IMG/VR virus record: IMGVR_UViG_3300017773_004876
Location: 1-32,049 of that record
Strand: one strand, 5' to 3'
Source of the DNA: a virus
Length of the DNA: 32,049 bases
Made by a program: the position numbers and the translations under genes. The notes beneath the pieces are model-generated. The model did no database searches and was not told the origin of the DNA. It saw only the letters and a list, made by a program, of their open reading frames with translations. Of the stretch, positions 1-29,339 are shown one piece after another. The first letter of the stretch is position 1. Every line of letters starts with the position of its first letter.

Positions 1-851
1 AATGATTGATGAGTAGCTCTAATAGGATTAATATCTAATCCTCCTCTACGAGTATATAAACAAGCAACCATTAACTGTTCTGGTTTACAAGCATCAGATA
101 AATGCTTAAATACCATTTCACATATTTCCTCGTGAAAATGACTAACTGTTCTATGACTAACAATATATTTAGCTATTGATTCTGCTGTTGGTACGTTTTT
201 ACCTATAATCTTAATAAATACATCACCCCAATCTGGTTGGTTAGTCACTCTACAATTAGACCTTAATAAGTTAGAACTAAATCTAACAGTAGTAGTATCG
301 CTATGCTCTTCAATATCAAGCTGACTTTCATCTGATTGGAAAGCTGTAAAGTCTATAGCATCTAAGTTAGCTATTTCTCCTAAATCTGTATACTCTTGAA
401 AAGATAAAGGTTCAGTTTCTAGATCTGAAGCATAGAAAGTAACAGTTGTTGTAGTCTCTAATAATTCATCTAGATCTCTCTTAACTCTTGCTTCAATACC
501 ACTAATACAATCAGCTGCATTATCTCCTATTCTGGTCATATTAAATGAATTCAAATATAATTTAATTGACTTAGATTCTACGTGAAATTCACTATTACTA
601 GGGCAAACGATTTTTAGCATTCCTGCTACTGGTTGACCTTTAGTAGTAATTGCTGATACTTCGTAACAATTCCATGTATCTACTCCTACAAAGCTATCAG
701 ATGTTAATCCGTAACCTTCTCTATTTAAGTATCTTGGTATTTTTACTAGTAGCTCAGGAGCATAGGTATCTTTGTACCCAGCACCTCCTACAGTTCCTAA
801 ATGTTTAGATGCAATATCTACAACTTCTTGATAATTTTTAACTTCTGCCAT
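1..851 (-). CDS. queF: QueF, NADPH-dependent 7-cyano-7-deazaguanine reductase (3' end cut by window)
   Basis: QueF reduces the nitrile of preQ0 to the aminomethyl group of preQ1. The frame runs from an ATG at 851 to the window edge with no stop, giving 283 codons. It is the long, tandem T-fold (E. coli) type. Visible hallmarks are the QueF motif ESKSIKLYLNSFN, the catalytic-cysteine segment LRSNCRVTNQPDWGD (thioimide Cys and the following Asp), and a C-terminal LYTRRGGLDINPIR, which in E. coli lies close to the end, so probably only about 10-20 residues are missing. The start is one base past the stop of the nuclease gene, which fits co-transcription. In this operon preQ1 is expected to serve DNA modification through DpdA rather than tRNA queuosine. 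Assignment is firm. Confidence 0.95.
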   Translation of the reverse strand, partial: MAEVKNYQEVVDIASKHLGTVGGAGYKDTYAPELLVKIPRYLNREGYGLTSDSFVGVDTWNCYEVSAITTKGQPVAGMLKIVCPSNSEFHVESKSIKLYLNSFNMTRIGDNAADCISGIEARVKRDLDELLETTTTVTFYASDLETEPLSFQEYTDLGEIANLDAIDFTAFQSDESQLDIEEHSDTTTVRFSSNLLRSNCRVTNQPDWGDVFIKIIGKNVPTAESIAKYIVSHRTVSHFHEEICEMVFKHLSDACKPEQLMVACLYTRRGGLDINPIRATHQS

Positions 852-852
852 A

Positions 853-1218
853 TTAACCTTTAAATAATTGTTTTTTACCACCCTCATAAACATAAGCGTG
901 ACCGTTTTCTATTAATAAATCATTAAGAGATTTTTCTTCTCCATCTATGAATATTTCTGCAAGTACTCTACCGTACTTACCTTTACCGTAAGATTGTATT
1001 TCAAACTTACCATCATTCATCTCTAGGTATTTTTTCGTAAATTCCGAAGCAAGTAAACCTTTAGCTTTTTCCTCTAGGTTTCTTGTTCTCTTTTCCCAGG
1101 TGTCAACACCTTTAAATCTTAACCTAGCTTTTACCCAGGTACTAAATCCTAAATCGATCATAACATCTGCTGTGTCACCATCTACTACTCTTAGTAATTT
1201 TGCTCCGTATCTAAACAT
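853..1218 (-). CDS. Staphylococcal nuclease-like (SNase/TNase) protein
   Basis: A compact 121-residue protein covering essentially one SNase OB-fold domain. The metal and catalytic residues align with staphylococcal nuclease: D13 and D15 in VVDGDT, R34 (R35), D39 (D40) and E42 (E43) in RFKGVDTWE, and R84 (R87) in KYGRVLAE. No signal peptide is visible, so it should act in the cytoplasm. Its ATG overlaps the end of the upstream kinase gene by 8 bases and its stop is one base before queF. Lying inside a 7-deazaguanine operon, it may degrade unmodified host DNA, but this is inference; it could equally be a general nucleotide-scavenging nuclease. Confidence 0.88.
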   Translation of the reverse strand: MFRYGAKLLRVVDGDTADVMIDLGFSTWVKARLRFKGVDTWEKRTRNLEEKAKGLLASEFTKKYLEMNDGKFEIQSYGKGKYGRVLAEIFIDGEEKSLNDLLIENGHAYVYEGGKKQLFKG

Positions 1219-19914: not shown

Positions 19915-21255
19915 TTAAAATAATTTATTCATAGTCTCTCTATCTAAAGAGAATTTAGGTCCTGCATTAGGATCTTCAAGTTCATCATGTGTCATCGCCT
20001 TGCCTTCAAATTCAATACGACCGTTATTGGTATCCATTTTTATATTATATGTCATACCGTCTTGACCGTATCTATTTTTCATAACATGAACTCTTCCTGT
20101 TCCTAATACTTTATCTTCTTTTTGTCTGGATAGTGATATACAAATATCTGCTACCATCATTTTATCGTAACTACCAGCAGCTTTATCTCCTTCAATGACG
20201 CTATCTCTAGCACCCATTCTATTTACTTGTGACGGAGTTAAAATAGGGATCTTAAGTTCTTTTGCTAATCCTTTTGTAGCAATAAATACATCGTCAATTT
20301 CATCTTTTCTTTCTGAGTTTCTTCCTCTAGAAGGAGCTTTTAAGTAATCGACATAGTCAATAATAATAATATCAGGTTTATGATCCATATCCGTACATTT
20401 CTGAATATGTGATTTAATCGTATTGACTGATGCTCCTTTAGGAGGGTATTCTTTTACTATTAGTTTACCTTTGAGGTTATCAACATATTTTTGAACTTCT
20501 TCCCTATGTTCGTTAATCTCATCGATAGTATAACCAGTGAAATAACAATCGAACCTTTTACCCACATAATCTTCTCCGAGTTCCAAAGTGTAATAATTGA
20601 CTTTATAGCCCATCTGAACAGCATGAGCAGCAATAGCAACCATAGTCCAAGACTTACCACCTCCCGGAGAGCCAAAAACAATACCCAAGTCACCAGGTCC
20701 AAATCCACCTTGGATACCATCATTGAAGACAGGCCAAGGAGTAGGAATAGTAGGACGGTAGTTGTCACGATAACGTGTTTCAATATCTTTATTATATTCA
20801 TGTCCAATATTTTTATCCATACCAGCCTTCATAGCTTTTTCAATAGTATTTCTTATACCATCAAAATCACTTTCCTTTAATAAGTCAGCTGAATTAAGGA
20901 TTGCGTTTTTCATTTCTTGATTCTGGCAGAATTTATTAAACTCTTCTTGCACGTATGCTACATCGTCTGTAGATGCTTCGTAAGAGTGTCTTAATTCTTC
21001 CTTAAGTGCTACTTTAAGCACTTCGTTCTCTACTTTCTGTAGCTTTACTTTAAGTACATCCATTGTAATATTGGTATGGTACTTATCAAAATAACTACAT
21101 ACTTCTGAGATAATCCACTTATGTGAATCTGCATCGAAGTAATGATCGTGGAGTACGTCTCTAACATTCAGTAAGAATGTTTTATCGGTAAGGAGCGATC
21201 CTAATACTTTTAGTTGAAATCCTTTTCCGTACTCTTGAAGTCTTTTTAATGTCAT
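19915..21255 (-). CDS. DnaB-type replicative helicase (T4 gp41-like)
   Basis: 446 residues. The N-terminal about 150 residues correspond to the DnaB N-domain and linker. The RecA-like core has Walker A GSPGGGKS (195-202), a Walker B DIIIIDYVDYL ending at D300, and PSQVNRMG, a DnaB motif. It unwinds DNA at the fork. It is encoded with UvsX, ssDNA-binding protein, polymerase and the FEN-type nuclease; no primase domain is seen here. Two cytidylyltransferase genes separate it from the nuclease. Confidence 0.93.
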   Translation of the reverse strand: MTLKRLQEYGKGFQLKVLGSLLTDKTFLLNVRDVLHDHYFDADSHKWIISEVCSYFDKYHTNITMDVLKVKLQKVENEVLKVALKEELRHSYEASTDDVAYVQEEFNKFCQNQEMKNAILNSADLLKESDFDGIRNTIEKAMKAGMDKNIGHEYNKDIETRYRDNYRPTIPTPWPVFNDGIQGGFGPGDLGIVFGSPGGGKSWTMVAIAAHAVQMGYKVNYYTLELGEDYVGKRFDCYFTGYTIDEINEHREEVQKYVDNLKGKLIVKEYPPKGASVNTIKSHIQKCTDMDHKPDIIIIDYVDYLKAPSRGRNSERKDEIDDVFIATKGLAKELKIPILTPSQVNRMGARDSVIEGDKAAGSYDKMMVADICISLSRQKEDKVLGTGRVHVMKNRYGQDGMTYNIKMDTNNGRIEFEGKAMTHDELEDPNAGPKFSLDRETMNKLF

Positions 21256-22103: not shown

Positions 22104-22234
22104 AAACTATTATTTTTATACATAAAAATGTCATCTACTAAATAATCTATACCTTTCATTGCTTCGGGTAAGTTTACATTTGAAACATCTTTTCTTATTA
22201 CTTTTAATCTTTCTATAATTTCTTCTCCACTCAT
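22100..22234 (-). CDS. Small helical protein (44 aa)
   Basis: A 44-residue frame (MSGEEIIERLKVIRKDVSNV, then NLPEAMKGIDYLVDDIFMYK) starting in an ATGA overlap with the nuclease stop and ending in an overlap with the next ATG. Composition and tight junctions at both ends argue that it is translated. Likely two helices; function unknown. Confidence 0.65.
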   Translation of the reverse strand: MSGEEIIERLKVIRKDVSNVNLPEAMKGIDYLVDDIFMYKNNSL

Positions 22235-23259
22235 GATACAGCTGTTAAATGTCGAAAGTTTTCTAACCAACCTTCTGTATTCTTTGTTACTCCTTCAATT
22301 TTATCTTGATCTAGTAGACTTAAAAATACTCCTGTCTGCAGATCCGGTATTGGTGCGTTAATTATTGCATTAACATATTCTTTTTCTTTATCATCTAAAG
22401 CTGTTTGGTGTAAATCCATCAACTTAAAGTTAGTTTCGACTCTATCCCATTGAGTAATAATTTTAGGAAATATCTTTTTACTTTTTTTCTCGTCTAGTTT
22501 AGCTTCACATATACCGTAAACATAATCTAAATCTGTTACTTCACTTAATAGTTTAGGAAATTCAGATACAATAGTTTTAATACCTAATCCTTTTACTCCT
22601 TGTAAATTATCTGAGTTATCTCCAACTAATGCCTTTACTATATTATAATTTTCAGGTAATACTTTTAGTTCATCAAATATATTATCTTTTGTAAAAGTTT
22701 TCTTTTTAACAGGTGCATATACCTCAACAGTATCGTCTACTAACTGTAAAAAGTCTTTATCTGATGAGACGATAGTGCATTTCTTAACATTAGAGGCGGA
22801 AGCTTTTTTAGCAATCCAAGCCATTATATCATCAGCTTCTAATTTTTCCATTACTATTTGCTGCAAAGGTAGACACTCTAGATAATCTTTAGTTCTAAGT
22901 AGTTGATTAATTAAAGCTTCCTGTTCTTCTTCTCTAGTATCATATAATCCCCAATGAGTTATTCTAGATGAAGCACGTTGTGCTTTATAGTTAGGGTCTA
23001 TATTCTGCCTGTTACCTGATCCTCCTTTACCGTCCCACACTACTATCACTCTAGTTGGATCAAATATCCTAGTTACATACCCTAAAGAGCGAAGAAAGCC
23101 CACTAAGCCTCCTATATGGGTGCCAGTGGGATTCATCGCCTTGAGTAACGAAAAGCTACGAATTAACATATTCATAGCGTCTATGACCAAAATATGGTCG
23201 TTCAACTCTCGGGGTGGGGTCTCTTTTAAATTTTTTAATATATCTCCGTAATCTTTCAT
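22231..23259 (-). CDS. FEN-type 5'-3' exonuclease (T4 RNase H-like)
   Basis: 342 residues of the PIN-like 5' nuclease family that removes RNA primers and flaps. Metal-binding acids are all present: D27 (LVIDAMN), D76 (VVWDGKGG), E141, D143 and D144 (KLEADDIMAWI), D167 and D169 (VSSDKDFLQL) and D214, D217 (GDNSDNLQGVKGLG, the helix-hairpin-helix entry). Because the family A polymerase here lacks a 5' nuclease domain, this separate protein supplies that activity. It overlaps the radical SAM gene by 4 bases. Confidence 0.93.
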   Translation of the reverse strand: MKDYGDILKNLKETPPRELNDHILVIDAMNMLIRSFSLLKAMNPTGTHIGGLVGFLRSLGYVTRIFDPTRVIVVWDGKGGSGNRQNIDPNYKAQRASSRITHWGLYDTREEEQEALINQLLRTKDYLECLPLQQIVMEKLEADDIMAWIAKKASASNVKKCTIVSSDKDFLQLVDDTVEVYAPVKKKTFTKDNIFDELKVLPENYNIVKALVGDNSDNLQGVKGLGIKTIVSEFPKLLSEVTDLDYVYGICEAKLDEKKSKKIFPKIITQWDRVETNFKLMDLHQTALDDKEKEYVNAIINAPIPDLQTGVFLSLLDQDKIEGVTKNTEGWLENFRHLTAVS

Positions 23260-24488
23260 ATTAAATTTGTTGATCTTCTATATGAAGTTTTATTATTTTT
23301 ATTTTCATCTGGAAATAATGTATCAAGGGAGTTAACTTTACCGCAGTTTTGTGCGCATGTAATTTTTTTCCCTTCACTGACTTTATTTTCCCAACTATCA
23401 TTATAAAGGTTTTTTAACACCTTATTTTTAATAATATTTTCTAGTGTATTAGAAGCTAAACTAAATTTATCAAATCCTACAGCTTCCATACTACCTAGCA
23501 ATTGCCTTGATGCTACAGGTACGTAATTACCTGCTAAATACTCAGCTCTTTCTCTATAAAACGCTACTGCTACAAAGCAACATTGATGTACAAAACCATC
23601 TACCTCTACGTATAAATCGTTTTGATTACATCTAGGTATTATTTTAGTATTATCAGCAATTTTTATTGTTTCACGGTCCAGATCTGTAAATCCACCGTCT
23701 TTAGAGCCTTCGCCAAAAGGTTCTATTGATTCTTTTATTACCTTAGCATTATCTTTAATATACGAAGGCTTGTAATCCGATACATCAGTTGGATAAATCC
23801 AATACTGTATACCACCTTCATTATTCTGGACTGGTACTGGGGTAATATTTTCTCCGTCATCTAAATTTATAGGAGCCTTAAAAATAGGTTGAAGGTTTAA
23901 ACCAGCAAAGAAGATTTTTGCTTCATCTATTTGATGTTCATTATGTTTAAATACCAAAAATTCCAGTACTGTGTTTTCTTTTCTCGTAAGAGTAGATTGA
24001 TATGCTTCAATATTTTTAATCAACTTATCCCACTTAACGTTTCTGCGGTATATATGATTAGTATCTTTTAACCCATCTACACTAAATACAGCTCTAACTT
24101 CTGTAGTTTTAGAATTGTTTGCTGCGGTTGCTACTTTTTTCCAGAAAGCAGGGTTTTTCATCCCTCCATTTGTGTGGAATTCTATCTTAAAAATATTTTC
24201 AAATTGACCACAGTATTCTAATATCTCTGGAAGATCTGGATTAGTAGCAGGATCTCCATGATTTCCACAGAAGTTTAGGTACTTCACCCTTTTCATTATA
24301 GAAACTGGAAACCACTCTTTAAATGTTTTAATATCTATATACCCCAATGTTAAACTACTGGGAGTTAAAGGTGTATTAGTTTCAAATCTTGGGCAACAGG
24401 GGCATGCAGCATTACAGAGAGTAGATATTTCTACATGTAAATAGTGAATTCTATCTGCCTGTTCTCTTCTTATGGGCTTACCACTCAT
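23256..24488 (-). CDS. Radical SAM protein with C-terminal cysteine-rich (SPASM/twitch-like) region
   Basis: 410 residues. The SAM cluster motif CX3CX2C is C25, C29, C32 in STLCNAACPCCPRF, near the N-terminus. NFCGNHGDP fits the GGEP region. A second cysteine group follows in the C-terminal third (PRCNQNDLYVEVDGFVHQCC and ITCAQNCGKV), suggesting an auxiliary cluster as in SPASM or twitch proteins. Such enzymes modify peptides, sugars or RNA. It lies between uvsX (ATGA-type overlap) and the FEN gene, so it is expressed with replication genes. Reaction unknown. Confidence 0.85.
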   Translation of the reverse strand: MSGKPIRREQADRIHYLHVEISTLCNAACPCCPRFETNTPLTPSSLTLGYIDIKTFKEWFPVSIMKRVKYLNFCGNHGDPATNPDLPEILEYCGQFENIFKIEFHTNGGMKNPAFWKKVATAANNSKTTEVRAVFSVDGLKDTNHIYRRNVKWDKLIKNIEAYQSTLTRKENTVLEFLVFKHNEHQIDEAKIFFAGLNLQPIFKAPINLDDGENITPVPVQNNEGGIQYWIYPTDVSDYKPSYIKDNAKVIKESIEPFGEGSKDGGFTDLDRETIKIADNTKIIPRCNQNDLYVEVDGFVHQCCFVAVAFYRERAEYLAGNYVPVASRQLLGSMEAVGFDKFSLASNTLENIIKNKVLKNLYNDSWENKVSEGKKITCAQNCGKVNSLDTLFPDENKNNKTSYRRSTNLI

Positions 24489-25561
24489 TAAGTTAATAAA
24501 CTTGGAGTAATTCTTTCCTCTTCTAAATCGCCTTCTTCTATCAAATCGAAATCTATTGACCCTACAAGTTTTAACCAGTGGTCTTTATGAGCGTCTCTAT
24601 ACTTGTCGATTGCTTTTTTATCATCTTCTATAAAACCATGTGAAGTCATTACTACTCTGCCTCTAGACTGTACTCCTCCAATGTGATTCTTTTCTATCTG
24701 AATATTAGTTCTTTTAGCGAATTCTACTTGAAGACCGTCCTTAATAGCTTTAATCTTTGATGTACCTGGATTAGTAATATTACCGAAAGTAACAACTAAT
24801 GTAGCATCGTACCACATAGACATTCCTCCTTTATTCTGTAACTTAGGTTGACCCATTGGATGCTCAGGTTTCATAGTCCATACTTTATTAATAGCTACTA
24901 ATGTATTAGTATAGGGAGAGTTTTCTTTTCTAGATAATAGAATCTTTTGATTAAGATTATTACCAAATTGAGTAGACATTGCTCCTGCATTCCATTCATT
25001 ATTATTCTTATTAGAACGTACTGATAGATCACAAGGTATAGATCCAATTGAATCCCAGAAGAAACACATATCATAAGGTAAGTTACCTTTTGTCTGTTCG
25101 TCTATTAAGTCAGCCATATGTACAGCTACTTCTTCTATTGTGTTCAATGTACCTCTATCCGCATATAAAAAGAATCCTTCGTAATCAGTAACTACTCCGT
25201 TCTCATCTTTTACTTCTTCAAATTCTAAGCCCATTTCTCTAGCATGTTCCCATGACCATTTCATCTCTGAAATAATAAATACAGGTAGAACTCCTTGCTT
25301 TTGAGCATTAACTGCTGCTTCTAGTAATGCAGTAGTCTTACCTGTATCACTATGACCTCTTAATAAGGTAATGTGACCTGTTGGTATACCCGGTAATGAT
25401 GTAATATCTTGAAATGCTTTAGATAAAGGTATCCAACCTTGTTCTTTAAACTTAACTGATGCGTTAGCGAAACCTTTTTTCTTCTTAAAGTTTCCTAAGT
25501 TAAAATTCTTTTTGACTGCTGCTGATGCTTTCTTTAGAGTCTCTTCTTTTTTCTTTGCCAT
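24488..25561 (-). CDS. uvsX: UvsX-like RecA-family recombinase
   Basis: 357 residues of the RecA/UvsX fold. After a lysine-rich N-terminal 40 residues comes ITLLRGHSDTGKTTALLEAA with Walker A at 69-76, then FIISEMKWSWE, a MCFFWDSIGSI Walker B segment and the NNNEWNAGAMSTQFGNNLNQ loop, in the order expected for UvsX. It would form strand-exchange filaments for recombination-dependent replication, with the gp32-like protein encoded upstream. It is flanked on both sides by radical SAM genes. A TATATTATA element lies in the 52-base gap upstream. Confidence 0.93.
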   Translation of the reverse strand: MAKKKEETLKKASAAVKKNFNLGNFKKKKGFANASVKFKEQGWIPLSKAFQDITSLPGIPTGHITLLRGHSDTGKTTALLEAAVNAQKQGVLPVFIISEMKWSWEHAREMGLEFEEVKDENGVVTDYEGFFLYADRGTLNTIEEVAVHMADLIDEQTKGNLPYDMCFFWDSIGSIPCDLSVRSNKNNNEWNAGAMSTQFGNNLNQKILLSRKENSPYTNTLVAINKVWTMKPEHPMGQPKLQNKGGMSMWYDATLVVTFGNITNPGTSKIKAIKDGLQVEFAKRTNIQIEKNHIGGVQSRGRVVMTSHGFIEDDKKAIDKYRDAHKDHWLKLVGSIDFDLIEEGDLEEERITPSLLT

Positions 25562-25613: not shown

Positions 25614-26663
25614 CTAAATTAGTGTATTTTTAGTCTCATATAACTCATGAAAATTATGTACAACATTAGGTAAGTCTTTTACCTTAGTTAAGTTTTCCAT
25701 AAATTCCTTAAATAGGGGGTGTTCTTTTTTAAATACTTCTTTGTTTTTAAAACTATCGTCATCATAAGTCCCCCAGTTTATAACTCGATTGAATTTTACT
25801 TCCCATTTAGTAGGAGTTTTTCTTTTATCAAAATAAGTCTTAATTAACTTATAATAATCCTCCATCTCTCTAAAATTACTATCTTGAGTAACAAAAGAAA
25901 AACAATACCAATTAATTGTAGGTATTTGAGTGATAAAGTTTAATCGTTCTAAAATTATATCCCATTTACCTCCTACACGTGTTTCATTCTCATAAGTATG
26001 TTTAGTAGCAGCATCTATAGAAATTTCGCAGGAATTGACAAACTTATGAATACTTTTCATTTTATCCCATAATTCTTTAGTCCATAAGCTACCGTTAGTA
26101 TGTAGGTGCATACTTTCTAACTTTTTATATTTATCAGCAGGTAAATTAATCATAAACTTTCTGAAAGAGTTACTAAAGAATGGATCGGCTGATCCGCTTA
26201 GGTATAATCTCTTTACAAATGGAGCTAACTCTTCGTTTACTTCTTTTAACTTCTTTTCTACTAGTTTCCTATCTTCACCTTTATACATAATAAAGTCTAA
26301 CCTACAAGTAGGACATGCATAATTACAACTTCTATCAAATGCAAAATTTACCGTATGGGGTCCGGGTTCACTTTTTAATAACTTAATATTTTTATCTGTC
26401 TTAGGTATAAACCTTGGTGATATTTTATTATTTTTTAATTCTGCTAGATACGGACATTGTAGTTCATCACATTTAGAGTATGAACCATCTAATATCGAAT
26501 CCCTTACTTCTTCTGCTCTATTGGATCTAAAATTACCTTTAATCCCTAAGCCTTGTTCTATGTCTATAGGTAGCCATGAAGGACAACATAACCACTGGTC
26601 TTTGTCGTGAACTTCAGTATACCTAAAAGGTGCTGTACAGATGTAGTCGGATTTATTGGCCAT
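25614..26663 (-). CDS. Radical SAM protein with N-terminal cysteine cluster
   Basis: 349 residues. The SAM motif is C113, C117, C120 in RSCNYACPTCRLDF. Ahead of it lies a cysteine-rich segment (C9, C26, C27, C65, C70, with RDSILDGSYSKCDELQCP), which has the look of a SPASM-type auxiliary-cluster domain but on the N-terminal side. The core continues with LYLSGSADPFF and HTNGSLW, typical of radical SAM peptide-modifying enzymes. It follows the strong terminator after the ssDNA-binding gene by only 5 bases, so its transcript must come from read-through or from a promoter inside that gene. Substrate unknown. Confidence 0.85.
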   Translation of the reverse strand: MANKSDYICTAPFRYTEVHDKDQWLCCPSWLPIDIEQGLGIKGNFRSNRAEEVRDSILDGSYSKCDELQCPYLAELKNNKISPRFIPKTDKNIKLLKSEPGPHTVNFAFDRSCNYACPTCRLDFIMYKGEDRKLVEKKLKEVNEELAPFVKRLYLSGSADPFFSNSFRKFMINLPADKYKKLESMHLHTNGSLWTKELWDKMKSIHKFVNSCEISIDAATKHTYENETRVGGKWDIILERLNFITQIPTINWYCFSFVTQDSNFREMEDYYKLIKTYFDKRKTPTKWEVKFNRVINWGTYDDDSFKNKEVFKKEHPLFKEFMENLTKVKDLPNVVHNFHELYETKNTLI

Positions 26664-26700: not shown

Positions 26701-27486
26701 TTACTCATTAAACAAGTCATCAAACTTGCTTACTGTGGATTGATTACCTGTAGTTGCTGTCTCTAATGTAAAGTCAGTCTTTGCTGGTGCAGTAGGTTCT
26801 GCTCCTGCTGGAGGAGTAGAATTTTCTTCTGAACCTGGGTTTAGGTAATTCTGTAGTTGCTTCTTAATGAAGTCGTAATCGTACTGGGTATGTACTTCAG
26901 TAGGGTTTGGTTGAGTCTTTAACCATGTATCAACTTGATCGTTATTATCTGATAACGCAGTTTGTTTAGGTTTAATTCTAACAGTAGTAGTAGGGTAAGG
27001 GTTACCTTGTTGTTGTTCTACTACTAAATCCCATCCGTTTATTACATCAGTATAGTCACCTACATCTTCATCTTCAGCTAAAGCCAATAATGCTTTATAG
27101 ATAGTAATACCGAATCCCCATAATCTTACACCTTTATCTTCTTCTCCTCTTACTACAACAGGAGCAAAGATTCTAGTTTTAGGATTAATCTTACCTGAAA
27201 GTGACCAATTATCTTTGTCATTAGTCTTTCTCAGTTCTTTAACAAATTCTTCAATAGGATCTTGTTTACCAAAGTTTGATAAAGCAACCATAGGATACTT
27301 TCCAATACCGTAATGAAACTTTAATTCCTTAAATGGGAATGTTGGATCATACGCAGAAGGTACAATTCTTAAAGTTTGCTTTCCTAATTCAGGTTTCCAA
27401 AAAATCTTTGAATAGTCAGTTTTTTCTTGAGTCTGACCGTTGTTATTCAACTCGCCGAGTTTCGCTTTAATAGCATCTAAATTCAT
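26701..27486 (-). CDS. gp32-like single-stranded DNA-binding protein
   Basis: 261 residues with the organisation of T4 gp32: a short basic N-terminus (MNLDAIKAKLGEL), a central OB core (RIVPSAYDPTFPFKELKFHYG, RIFAPVVVRGEEDKGVRLWGFG) and a proline-rich linker leading to an acidic C-terminal tail ending SKFDDLFNE, the protein-recruitment tip. The core has no clear zinc cysteines, unlike T4 gp32. It coats ssDNA for replication and recombination with UvsX. A candidate promoter precedes it and a strong terminator follows, so it may form a highly expressed single-gene unit. Confidence 0.9.
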   Translation of the reverse strand: MNLDAIKAKLGELNNNGQTQEKTDYSKIFWKPELGKQTLRIVPSAYDPTFPFKELKFHYGIGKYPMVALSNFGKQDPIEEFVKELRKTNDKDNWSLSGKINPKTRIFAPVVVRGEEDKGVRLWGFGITIYKALLALAEDEDVGDYTDVINGWDLVVEQQQGNPYPTTTVRIKPKQTALSDNNDQVDTWLKTQPNPTEVHTQYDYDFIKKQLQNYLNPGSEENSTPPAGAEPTAPAKTDFTLETATTGNQSTVSKFDDLFNE

Positions 27487-27534: not shown

Positions 27535-27996
27535 TCAATTATCCAACTCTAGTATCTTATAAAGTTTGGTATTTACTCTTTTTAATTCCGGACCTTTGGT
27601 AAGAAGAATACAATTTCTATAGTCTGGCCAGTTTACTCTGTAGGATGTGTCTAGCTGACCTCCGTTTAGCTCTTTAATTAAGGTGTTTAGAGCATTGATT
27701 GTATATAAGGTATTAGATTCTTTTTTTCTATGTACGAGAATAGTGTTCTCTAGAAACTGTCCTACATTGCCAAAATCTACATTATAAGTACATATATACT
27801 CATCTTGTGACTTGGAATATAAAACAAAAATTTTATTGTATATTATATTGTACCTTTCTTGAATAGTGCCTAATATGTCGTCCAGTGAATCCTCTGTGGC
27901 AAAAGTACAAAACAGTTTGTTACTCATATCTTCATTTAAATATATTGGATCGATATCGTAATCGAACTCCCTTTCTATAACACTTGCATCTTTCAT
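27535..27996 (-). CDS. Hypothetical protein (153 aa) in the replication block
   Basis: 153 residues, mixed alpha/beta, with acidic N-terminal EREFDYDIDPIYLNEDMSN and a central TIQERYNIIYNKIFVLYSKS. No catalytic motif, signal or membrane segment. It lies 48 bases upstream of the ssDNA-binding gene and 17 bases downstream of the polymerase gene. The position would suit a replication or recombination accessory factor such as a UvsY- or gp59-type mediator, but no sequence similarity to these can be seen by eye. Confidence 0.75.
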   Translation of the reverse strand: MKDASVIEREFDYDIDPIYLNEDMSNKLFCTFATEDSLDDILGTIQERYNIIYNKIFVLYSKSQDEYICTYNVDFGNVGQFLENTILVHRKKESNTLYTINALNTLIKELNGGQLDTSYRVNWPDYRNCILLTKGPELKRVNTKLYKILELDN

Positions 27997-28013: not shown

Positions 28014-29339
28014 CTATAAACTGAGGTCTTTTGAAAATTTAAATTTCACTGGGTATTTTTTACCTGTTTCTAAGATCTCTTGTAGTTTCTCTAATGTTTC
28101 TTTACCATCTTCTTTTGAATAATCAAAAAGGAGGGCGTCGTAGGTATAGAGTACAACCTTTGTTTTCTTCCCTTGTAGGTACCTAAGTACTTCTTTTAAT
28201 ATAAGAATATTATTTGATGTTTCCAACGACTGCATCATATAGTTCATAAGCTTGGCTGGGTGCATCTCTTTTAACTGCTTTGTAAAATGTTTACCTGATT
28301 GAGGATTTTCTACATAACCGTCACTATTAAAATTGCTCCACATATTATCTATATAATTCTGAATGCCTTTGAAAATGTCTAATTCTTTATGTTCTTCAGG
28401 TATCTTACCGTATATAGCTTGAAAATTAATTTGTTTGGCATCAAGATACTGTTCTTCAGTAATATCTTCAGTGCCGAAATAATGCTTAGCTAGTTGTTTA
28501 TGAGCAGAGTCTGGTGTTAGTTTATAGTTAATTTGCTCAGAAAGTAACCTAAGGTGATAACCATCGAAATCGAACTCAACAAAATAGTTATTGGTTGGAT
28601 GGAAGCACTTCCGGTGTTGTGGGCTCTTAGGAATAGCAGCGAAGTTAACAGAATTAAAAGCATTAGTAGGTCTAGAAGTTGCATTGTATAAATTGTATGA
28701 AGTTAGTACTTTATTATCCACAGTATTATACAGTGGATTTCTTGGTTTAAATAAATCTTTATATTCTTCGTAATAAACTCCTAGTCCTGATTGTTCTAGT
28801 AAATAGAATACATTTGTAGCAATTTTATTATAGAAATCAAAACCAGAAGGTAATGATAATTTTATTACGTCTTGTATTTTATTATATACTTTTTCACTAG
28901 ATTCATACAACTTAGGTAGAGGAATTAACTGATTAATGTTTTTAAAGTCAGTAAATTTATTGTAAAAGTAATTAGTAGTAGGTAATTCTCTAGAATACTC
29001 TAGTCTTTCATAATTTGTCATTGAATATAACAACGATATGTCTATGGCATCCTGTAGATTAAAGTGATAGAGCAAGTTCTTCTTATCTAATGTATATAGT
29101 TTACTTGCAGAAGAAAGAAGCTTGTATACACGGTTTTTATCTACATTAATTCCTTCGTCATGATTTATAGGAATAATATATCCGTGGTGGGAATCTATTA
29201 ATCTAATATAAACCGCTACCGTAGAAGTAAGTTTAGGGTGATAGTAATCGTTAGATGAAATAACATCCACAAATACTCCTAATTTAATTAGCTTCTCTAA
29301 GTTCTGTAATTTGTCTTCTTGCTCAACTATATAAAACAC
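28014..29339 (-). CDS. Compact family A DNA polymerase (degenerate)
   Basis: 441 residues, shorter than the about 600 of a Klenow-type core. Motif A is NYFVEFDFDGYHLRLLSEQ with catalytic D257; motif B is LDAKQINFQAIYG with K302 and Y310; motif C is LYTYDALLF with D401. Changes from the consensus are the motif A Glu steric gate (now H262), the motif B Arg at K minus 4 (now Y298) and the motif C HDE (now Y-D-A). The N-terminal region resembles a 3'-5' exonuclease domain (FVDVISSNDYYHPKLTSTVA) but acidic residues are mostly lost. The start is GTG with AAAAAAGG eight bases before it. Replicative or accessory role is undecided. Confidence 0.82.
   Translation of the reverse strand: MFYIVEQEDKLQNLEKLIKLGVFVDVISSNDYYHPKLTSTVAVYIRLIDSHHGYIIPINHDEGINVDKNRVYKLLSSASKLYTLDKKNLLYHFNLQDAIDISLLYSMTNYERLEYSRELPTTNYFYNKFTDFKNINQLIPLPKLYESSEKVYNKIQDVIKLSLPSGFDFYNKIATNVFYLLEQSGLGVYYEEYKDLFKPRNPLYNTVDNKVLTSYNLYNATSRPTNAFNSVNFAAIPKSPQHRKCFHPTNNYFVEFDFDGYHLRLLSEQINYKLTPDSAHKQLAKHYFGTEDITEEQYLDAKQINFQAIYGKIPEEHKELDIFKGIQNYIDNMWSNFNSDGYVENPQSGKHFTKQLKEMHPAKLMNYMMQSLETSNNILILKEVLRYLQGKKTKVVLYTYDALLFDYSKEDGKETLEKLQEILETGKKYPVKFKFSKDLSL

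Follow-up and report, generated by a model that had tools for sequence, protein, structure and literature searches.

A divPolA1-type family A DNA polymerase, probably accessory, and its near-constant 153-residue neighbour in a viral replication block

The window, that is, the whole stretch of 32,049 nucleotides of viral DNA analysed here, carries a gene for a family A DNA polymerase homologue of only 441 residues, and the question arises what a polymerase so short, and with such unusual motifs, does among replication genes that resemble those of T4. In the earlier note it was taken for a degenerate enzyme far from known types, perhaps an accessory polymerase or one suited to 7-deaza templates. 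The gene and its parts, with residue numbers of the encoded protein, are as follows.

28014..29339, minus strand: divPolA1-type family A DNA polymerase homologue, 441 residues, GTG start
28920..29339, minus strand: N-terminal 3'-5' exonuclease-like domain, inactive, residues about 1-140 (border approximate)
28695..28796, minus strand: residual thumb, E182 to Y215, 33 residues (15-33 residues in 177 relatives)
28548..28577, minus strand: motif A, residues 255-264, EFDFDGYHLR; codon of D257 at 28569-28571, H262 at the Glu710 position
28407..28436, minus strand: motif B/O-helix core, residues 302-311, KQINFQAIYG; K302, Y310 and G311 invariant
28122..28148, minus strand: motif C, residues 398-406, YTYDALLFD; catalytic D401, codon at 28137-28139

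The match of the window protein to PF00476 (DNA_pol_A) reached 43.3 bits (E 3e-11), above the curated cut-off of 34.3. Klenow residues are numbered, and their roles understood, as is general background. The residue equivalences were obtained by profile alignment to PDB 1d8y, in which D257 was aligned to Klenow D705 and H262 to E710. Motif B of the window polymerase reads YLDAKQINFQAIYG, with Y298 at the position of R754, and K302, F306 and Y310 are retained as the equivalents of K758, F762 and Y766. In motif C, Y400-D401-A402 stands in place of H881-D882-E883, and N366 and Q370 are retained from the N845/Q849 segment. Both the open reading frame and the alignment agree with the earlier note on the length of 441 residues and on the absence of the canonical motif A Glu, motif B Arg and motif C HDE. 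An enzyme that lacks counterparts of Glu710 and Arg754 should catalyse less well. A missing second acid in motif C does not preclude activity: the polymerase of phage Tt72, with Ser at this position, is active (PMC9324360).

Conservation was then considered among the relatives of this protein. A scan of IMG/VR viral contigs gave 294 close relatives, and two wider IMG/VR scans gave more than 500 relatives each as a lower bound; conservation was assessed on 177 complete sequences, all distinct, of which the most divergent are about 25% identical to the window protein. No variation was seen in this set at D257, H262, K302, Y310, G311, Q370, E373 and Y400. D259, Y298 (in place of Arg754) and D401 were each found in 176 of the 177, the single exception at D401 (locus L206) looking like a frameshifted reading frame. 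The earlier note was right to name D257 and D401 as the catalytic aspartates, which bind the metals. The F306 position was F in 173 sequences and W in four, position 402 was A or S, D406 was present in 174, and the TxxR motif and the equivalents of Asn845 and Gln849 were invariant or nearly so. For 132 pairs of loci of moderate divergence, dN/dS ranged from 0.04 to 0.22, indicating that the motif substitutions are not the outcome of chance or decay. Judged from these sequences, the polymerase is under strong purifying selection, with an active site that is altered but intact, and the protein is thus specialised rather than decaying; 'degenerate', in the sense of decay, was the wrong word. A search of 84,980 genomes of bacteria and archaea gave no more than three matches, all in metagenome-assembled genomes, and the gene is therefore not a prophage or host gene.

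The window polymerase is a member of divPolA1, the family described by Yutin et al. (2024, Virol J 21:200; PMC11348598) with Flavobacterium phage immuto as the type phage, and nothing sets it outside this family. The nearest isolate protein was immuto gp001 (59.6% identity over 441/441 residues, E 3e-172). In PMC11348598, divPolA1 was reported from 14 phages as having a truncated thumb, an inactivated exonuclease and a conserved palm; the phages encode a further, regular DNA polymerase, which may belong to family A, B or C, and the replication genes downstream of divPolA1 are conserved. All of these features but the second polymerase were reproduced for the window: in addition to the homology with immuto, the palm catalytic residues are kept, the thumb is cut, the 3'-5' exonuclease is dead and replication genes follow downstream. 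Hence the observation made on the window was itself correct and concerns a family already known; 'far from known types' holds only in part, the family having been published. The protein has neither the canonical motif residues nor the thumb subdomain of a Pol I-type enzyme. Another second, thumb-less family A polymerase (PolA) beside a regular polymerase is divPolA2 of barbaviruses, which, as described in PMC11348598, differs in that its N-terminal domain is unique and its gene neighbours vary. A search of the open-access literature found no experimental follow-up or biochemical data on any divPolA1 member. The window polymerase matched no PHROG, and other members of the family match generic 'DNA polymerase' PHROGs. 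Rhodothermus phage RM378 (Far-T4) was considered as a precedent and rejected, its annotated 313-residue 'DNA polymerase' looking by eye like an exonuclease of the family B type; neither RM378 nor T4 nor P-SSM2 was matched by profiles of the polymerase or of its 153-residue neighbour, described below.

Structure prediction, proposed in the earlier note, returned a Pol I large-fragment fold. The AF2 model, built with 105 sequences (mean pLDDT 94.6, pTM 0.91), matched Pol I large fragments from end to end, with some 410 residues aligned at Z about 27 (about 26-27 for the Bst Pol I large fragment). With Klenow and Bst the protein shares this global fold, the catalytic Asp pair and the equivalents of Lys758, Phe762 and Tyr766. 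It differs in the replacement of Glu710, Arg754, His881 and Glu883, in the lack of an exonuclease site, in being about 140 residues shorter and in two features that go beyond the earlier note, a near-absent thumb and a dead exonuclease-like N-terminal third. Against the 15-33 residues of the family, the thumb stretch comes to about 118 residues in Klenow, by a hand count on the profile alignment in which the pre-thumb segment matched very weakly (0.5 bits), and to about 200 residues in the regular PolA of immuto. The alignment of the model starts at its residue 1, and the Pol I large fragments on which it was aligned begin with the exonuclease domain; among the 177 relatives no conserved DEDD set or other catalytic carboxylates were found in the N-terminal third, and neither the window protein nor immuto gp001 matched PF01612. 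Seven members of 332-342 residues begin just before P140 and thus have no exonuclease-like domain. Such forms, for example L157:3079-4077, L144:7588-8598, L150:7773-8780 and L171:3253-4281, consist of little more than palm and fingers.

The surrounding block is T4-like as stated before, with a gp32-type single-strand DNA-binding protein (SSB), a UvsX-like RecA, a separate 5' nuclease and a helicase of the DnaB/gp41 type.

26701..27486, minus strand: gp32-like single-strand DNA-binding protein (PF08804, phrog_1192)
24488..25561, minus strand: UvsX/RecA-like recombinase (phrog_97, PF00154)
22231..23259, minus strand: stand-alone 5'-3' exonuclease (PF02739, PF01367)
19915..21255, minus strand: DnaB/gp41-like replicative helicase (phrog_19, E 8.5e-78; PF03796)
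3..893, minus strand: QueF homologue cut by the left end (64% to immuto QueF)

The gene order of the window is that of immuto: polymerase, SSB, RecA, 5' nuclease, helicase, NrdB and NrdA, and then the QueC/D/E/F, FolE and DpdA genes. At 138 loci the polymerase, the gene for the 153-residue protein, SSB, RecA and 5' nuclease were found all together. Two radical SAM genes lie inside the replication block of the window (23256-24488 and 25614-26663, both minus strand), one in the gap between 5' nuclease and RecA and the other between RecA and SSB; the immuto annotation shows none there.

Whether a separate regular polymerase accompanies divPolA1 was examined in the related records. A family B polymerase, for which the earlier note suggested a search, gave no match in immuto and its 18 nearest contigs (19 records), and the regular enzyme there belongs to family A. 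A second PolA was found in immuto and in seven related contigs, six of these with frames of 777-787 residues and one with a frame of 702 residues that runs off the contig end; no immuto-like record of sufficient length lacks a second, full-length PolA. The regular PolA of immuto (gp199, 777 residues) and its relatives are, like divPolA1, of family A and occur in the same genomes; unlike divPolA1, gp199 has complete exonuclease and thumb regions, a PF01612 match to the 3'-5' exonuclease domain, the canonical motif C HDQ and a PF00476 score of 193 bits against 43. For the distant members, a family B polymerase was detected in 13 of 20 contigs, the others being fragments in which its absence is uninformative, and none of the 20 showed a PolA beyond the short divPolA1 protein. 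The 'complete genome' of Microcystis phage Mel-JY01 (190 kb) also encodes a family B polymerase, and the 484-kb phage LR756508 gave family B matches in two reading frames and one family C match. In the latter record (W03; 260623-266900 and 47415-48068) the family B parts lie in separate frames of 1022 and 625 residues, plus a family C enzyme of the DnaE type; an intein, an intron or an assembly break could account for the split. The window, a 32-kb fragment, gave one PolA match. The start of the full-length PolA gene lies 0.8-1.5 kb past QueF in immuto and in four relatives, and GroES-GroEL come next. Since the window ends inside QueF, this synteny predicts its regular PolA about 1 kb beyond position 1, just outside the left end.

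Between the polymerase and SSB genes there is one further gene.

27535..27996, minus strand: 153-residue protein of no known fold, proposed partner, 17 bp downstream of the polymerase

Of 50,697 phage records, six have homologues of this protein, and the same six have the polymerase, the polymerase search otherwise adding weak matches to ordinary PolA. In IMG/VR the gene lies downstream on the same strand at 214 of 238 polymerase loci; 23 of the remaining 24 end too early, with at most 2.3 kb of downstream sequence, which is within the observed range of gaps. The last one, L143 (record G036, 47 kb), is the only locus with enough flank that carries divPolA1 and no gene for the 153-residue protein, as far as a search run without a positive control can tell; its polymerase is intact and other genes occupy the site. 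The partner is accordingly not strictly required. Viewed from the other side, the gene for the 153-residue protein has the polymerase upstream at 77 of its 78 close loci and at 59 of its 68 distant ones; at the ten where the polymerase is missing, the upstream sequence does not exceed 1.9 kb. This gene arrangement suggests that the 153-residue protein is likely a partner of divPolA1. Interaction is not proved by shared occurrence in the block, where SSB, RecA and 5' nuclease are regular as well. Nor does tree similarity single out the 153-residue protein, because the distance correlation with the polymerase is 0.951 for this protein and almost as high, 0.948, for the 5' nuclease. No fusion of the two genes was detected among 376 polymerase and 359 partner reading frames.

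The AF2 model of the 153-residue protein was confident over the core (mean pLDDT 88.7). It gave no fold match in PDB at E<=0.001, and showed generic alpha/beta matches only, over residues 25-88 with Z up to 6.5. The protein had no PHROG and no convincing Pfam match; FecR_C and SusE, which appeared for the family, were discarded as below cut-off or confined to very few members. Its sole match in the viral library was an uncharacterised phage protein of 38% identity. The family shares a conserved basic/polar stretch, HRKKxxNTxYTxNALN. The text of PMC11348598 does not mention this gene, which may be included in the gene-neighbourhood figure of that paper.

As the relatives carry a separate regular polymerase of family A or B, we favour the reading that divPolA1 is an accessory enzyme, one of the two possibilities named in the earlier note: second PolA genes in immuto and the seven contigs, and family B genes in the distant contigs and in Mel-JY01, speak for it. 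Most probably, divPolA1 is an active, non-proofreading, thumb-reduced polymerase that works beside the regular PolA or PolB, with the 153-residue protein as its proposed partner in a two-subunit accessory enzyme. It has lost proofreading and nearly the whole thumb and kept the palm, the fingers and the two metal-binding aspartates, and may act on short stretches inside the replication/recombination apparatus formed with SSB, the UvsX-like recombinase, the 5' nuclease and the gp41-like helicase, while most of the genome would be copied by the regular polymerase. divPolA1 might, for instance, fill gaps or extend intermediates of recombination, as suggested by the fact that the 5' nuclease and polymerase parts of Pol I are separate genes here. 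Without a thumb, divPolA1 would bind the primer-template weakly, and the 153-residue protein could supply a grip on DNA or tether the polymerase to the apparatus. A bolder form, in which the two proteins make up a two-subunit polymerase, the 153-residue protein substituting for the thumb in grip and processivity, and serve, in place of the exchangeable regular polymerase, as the fixed polymerase of the replication/recombination apparatus, is possible, if doubtful.

The roles of the two polymerases might also be reversed, with divPolA1 as a core replicase, or as the lagging-strand enzyme, and with repair or another purpose left to the regular PolA or PolB. This, the main rival reading, we regard as unlikely. 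It is true that divPolA1 occupies a constant position within the conserved replication block, whereas the regular polymerase changes between families A and B (and C in PMC11348598) and its surroundings are mixed, with GroEL/ES and genes of nucleotide metabolism; however, copying 160-190 kb would be an unusual task for an enzyme with no proofreading activity and hardly any thumb, and it is the regular PolA of immuto that has the PF01612 exonuclease match and the canonical HDQ. Replacement of the Glu710, His881, Glu883 and Arg754 equivalents could instead point to a catalytically dead polymerase fold retained as scaffold or regulator. Dead enzymes, however, normally lose residues such as the metal aspartates, the equivalents of Lys758, Phe762, Tyr766, Asn845 and Gln849, and TxxR, all of which are invariant or nearly so in the 177 sequences, and the active enzyme with Ser at Glu883 cited above also argues against this reading, which is improbable.

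Two more specialised roles have still less in their favour. As the steric-gate Glu is replaced (the E710 equivalent is His in 177/177) and an RNA polymerase role was raised for divPolA2 in PMC11348598, divPolA1 might make RNA or mixed primers; yet immuto has a separate DnaG-type primase gene, Phe306 is retained, and the 50 structural matches listed are all Pol I-like DNA polymerases, which makes a primer-making role very improbable. Specialisation for 7-deazaguanine templates, the other possibility named in the earlier note, accords with the homologues of FolE, QueD, QueE, QueC, QueF and DpdA encoded by both the window and immuto. The same active site is present, however, in Mel-JY01, in LR756508 and in a 173-kb contig, none of which gave a QueC match, and such a specialisation can hardly be credited.

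These findings indicate that many large aquatic phages carry divPolA1 beside their main DNA polymerase. The family is kept with an invariant active site although the main polymerase has been exchanged between families, and divPolA1 must therefore do something that the main polymerase does not. The 153-residue protein is a concrete candidate for how a thumb-less family A polymerase could work. What is new relative to the text of PMC11348598 is modest: the near-constant co-occurrence of the 153-residue neighbour, the forms of about 335 residues without the exonuclease-like domain, and a much wider distribution with invariant active site, several hundred IMG/VR relatives against 14 genomes. At three loci of distant members (L097:9418-10494, L157:4107-5432 and L143:9047-10123), a protein of 350-440 residues is encoded just downstream of the polymerase; the first 40 or so residues of these proteins look alike by eye (LLEWSYRVDKGYP-type), and the remainder differs.
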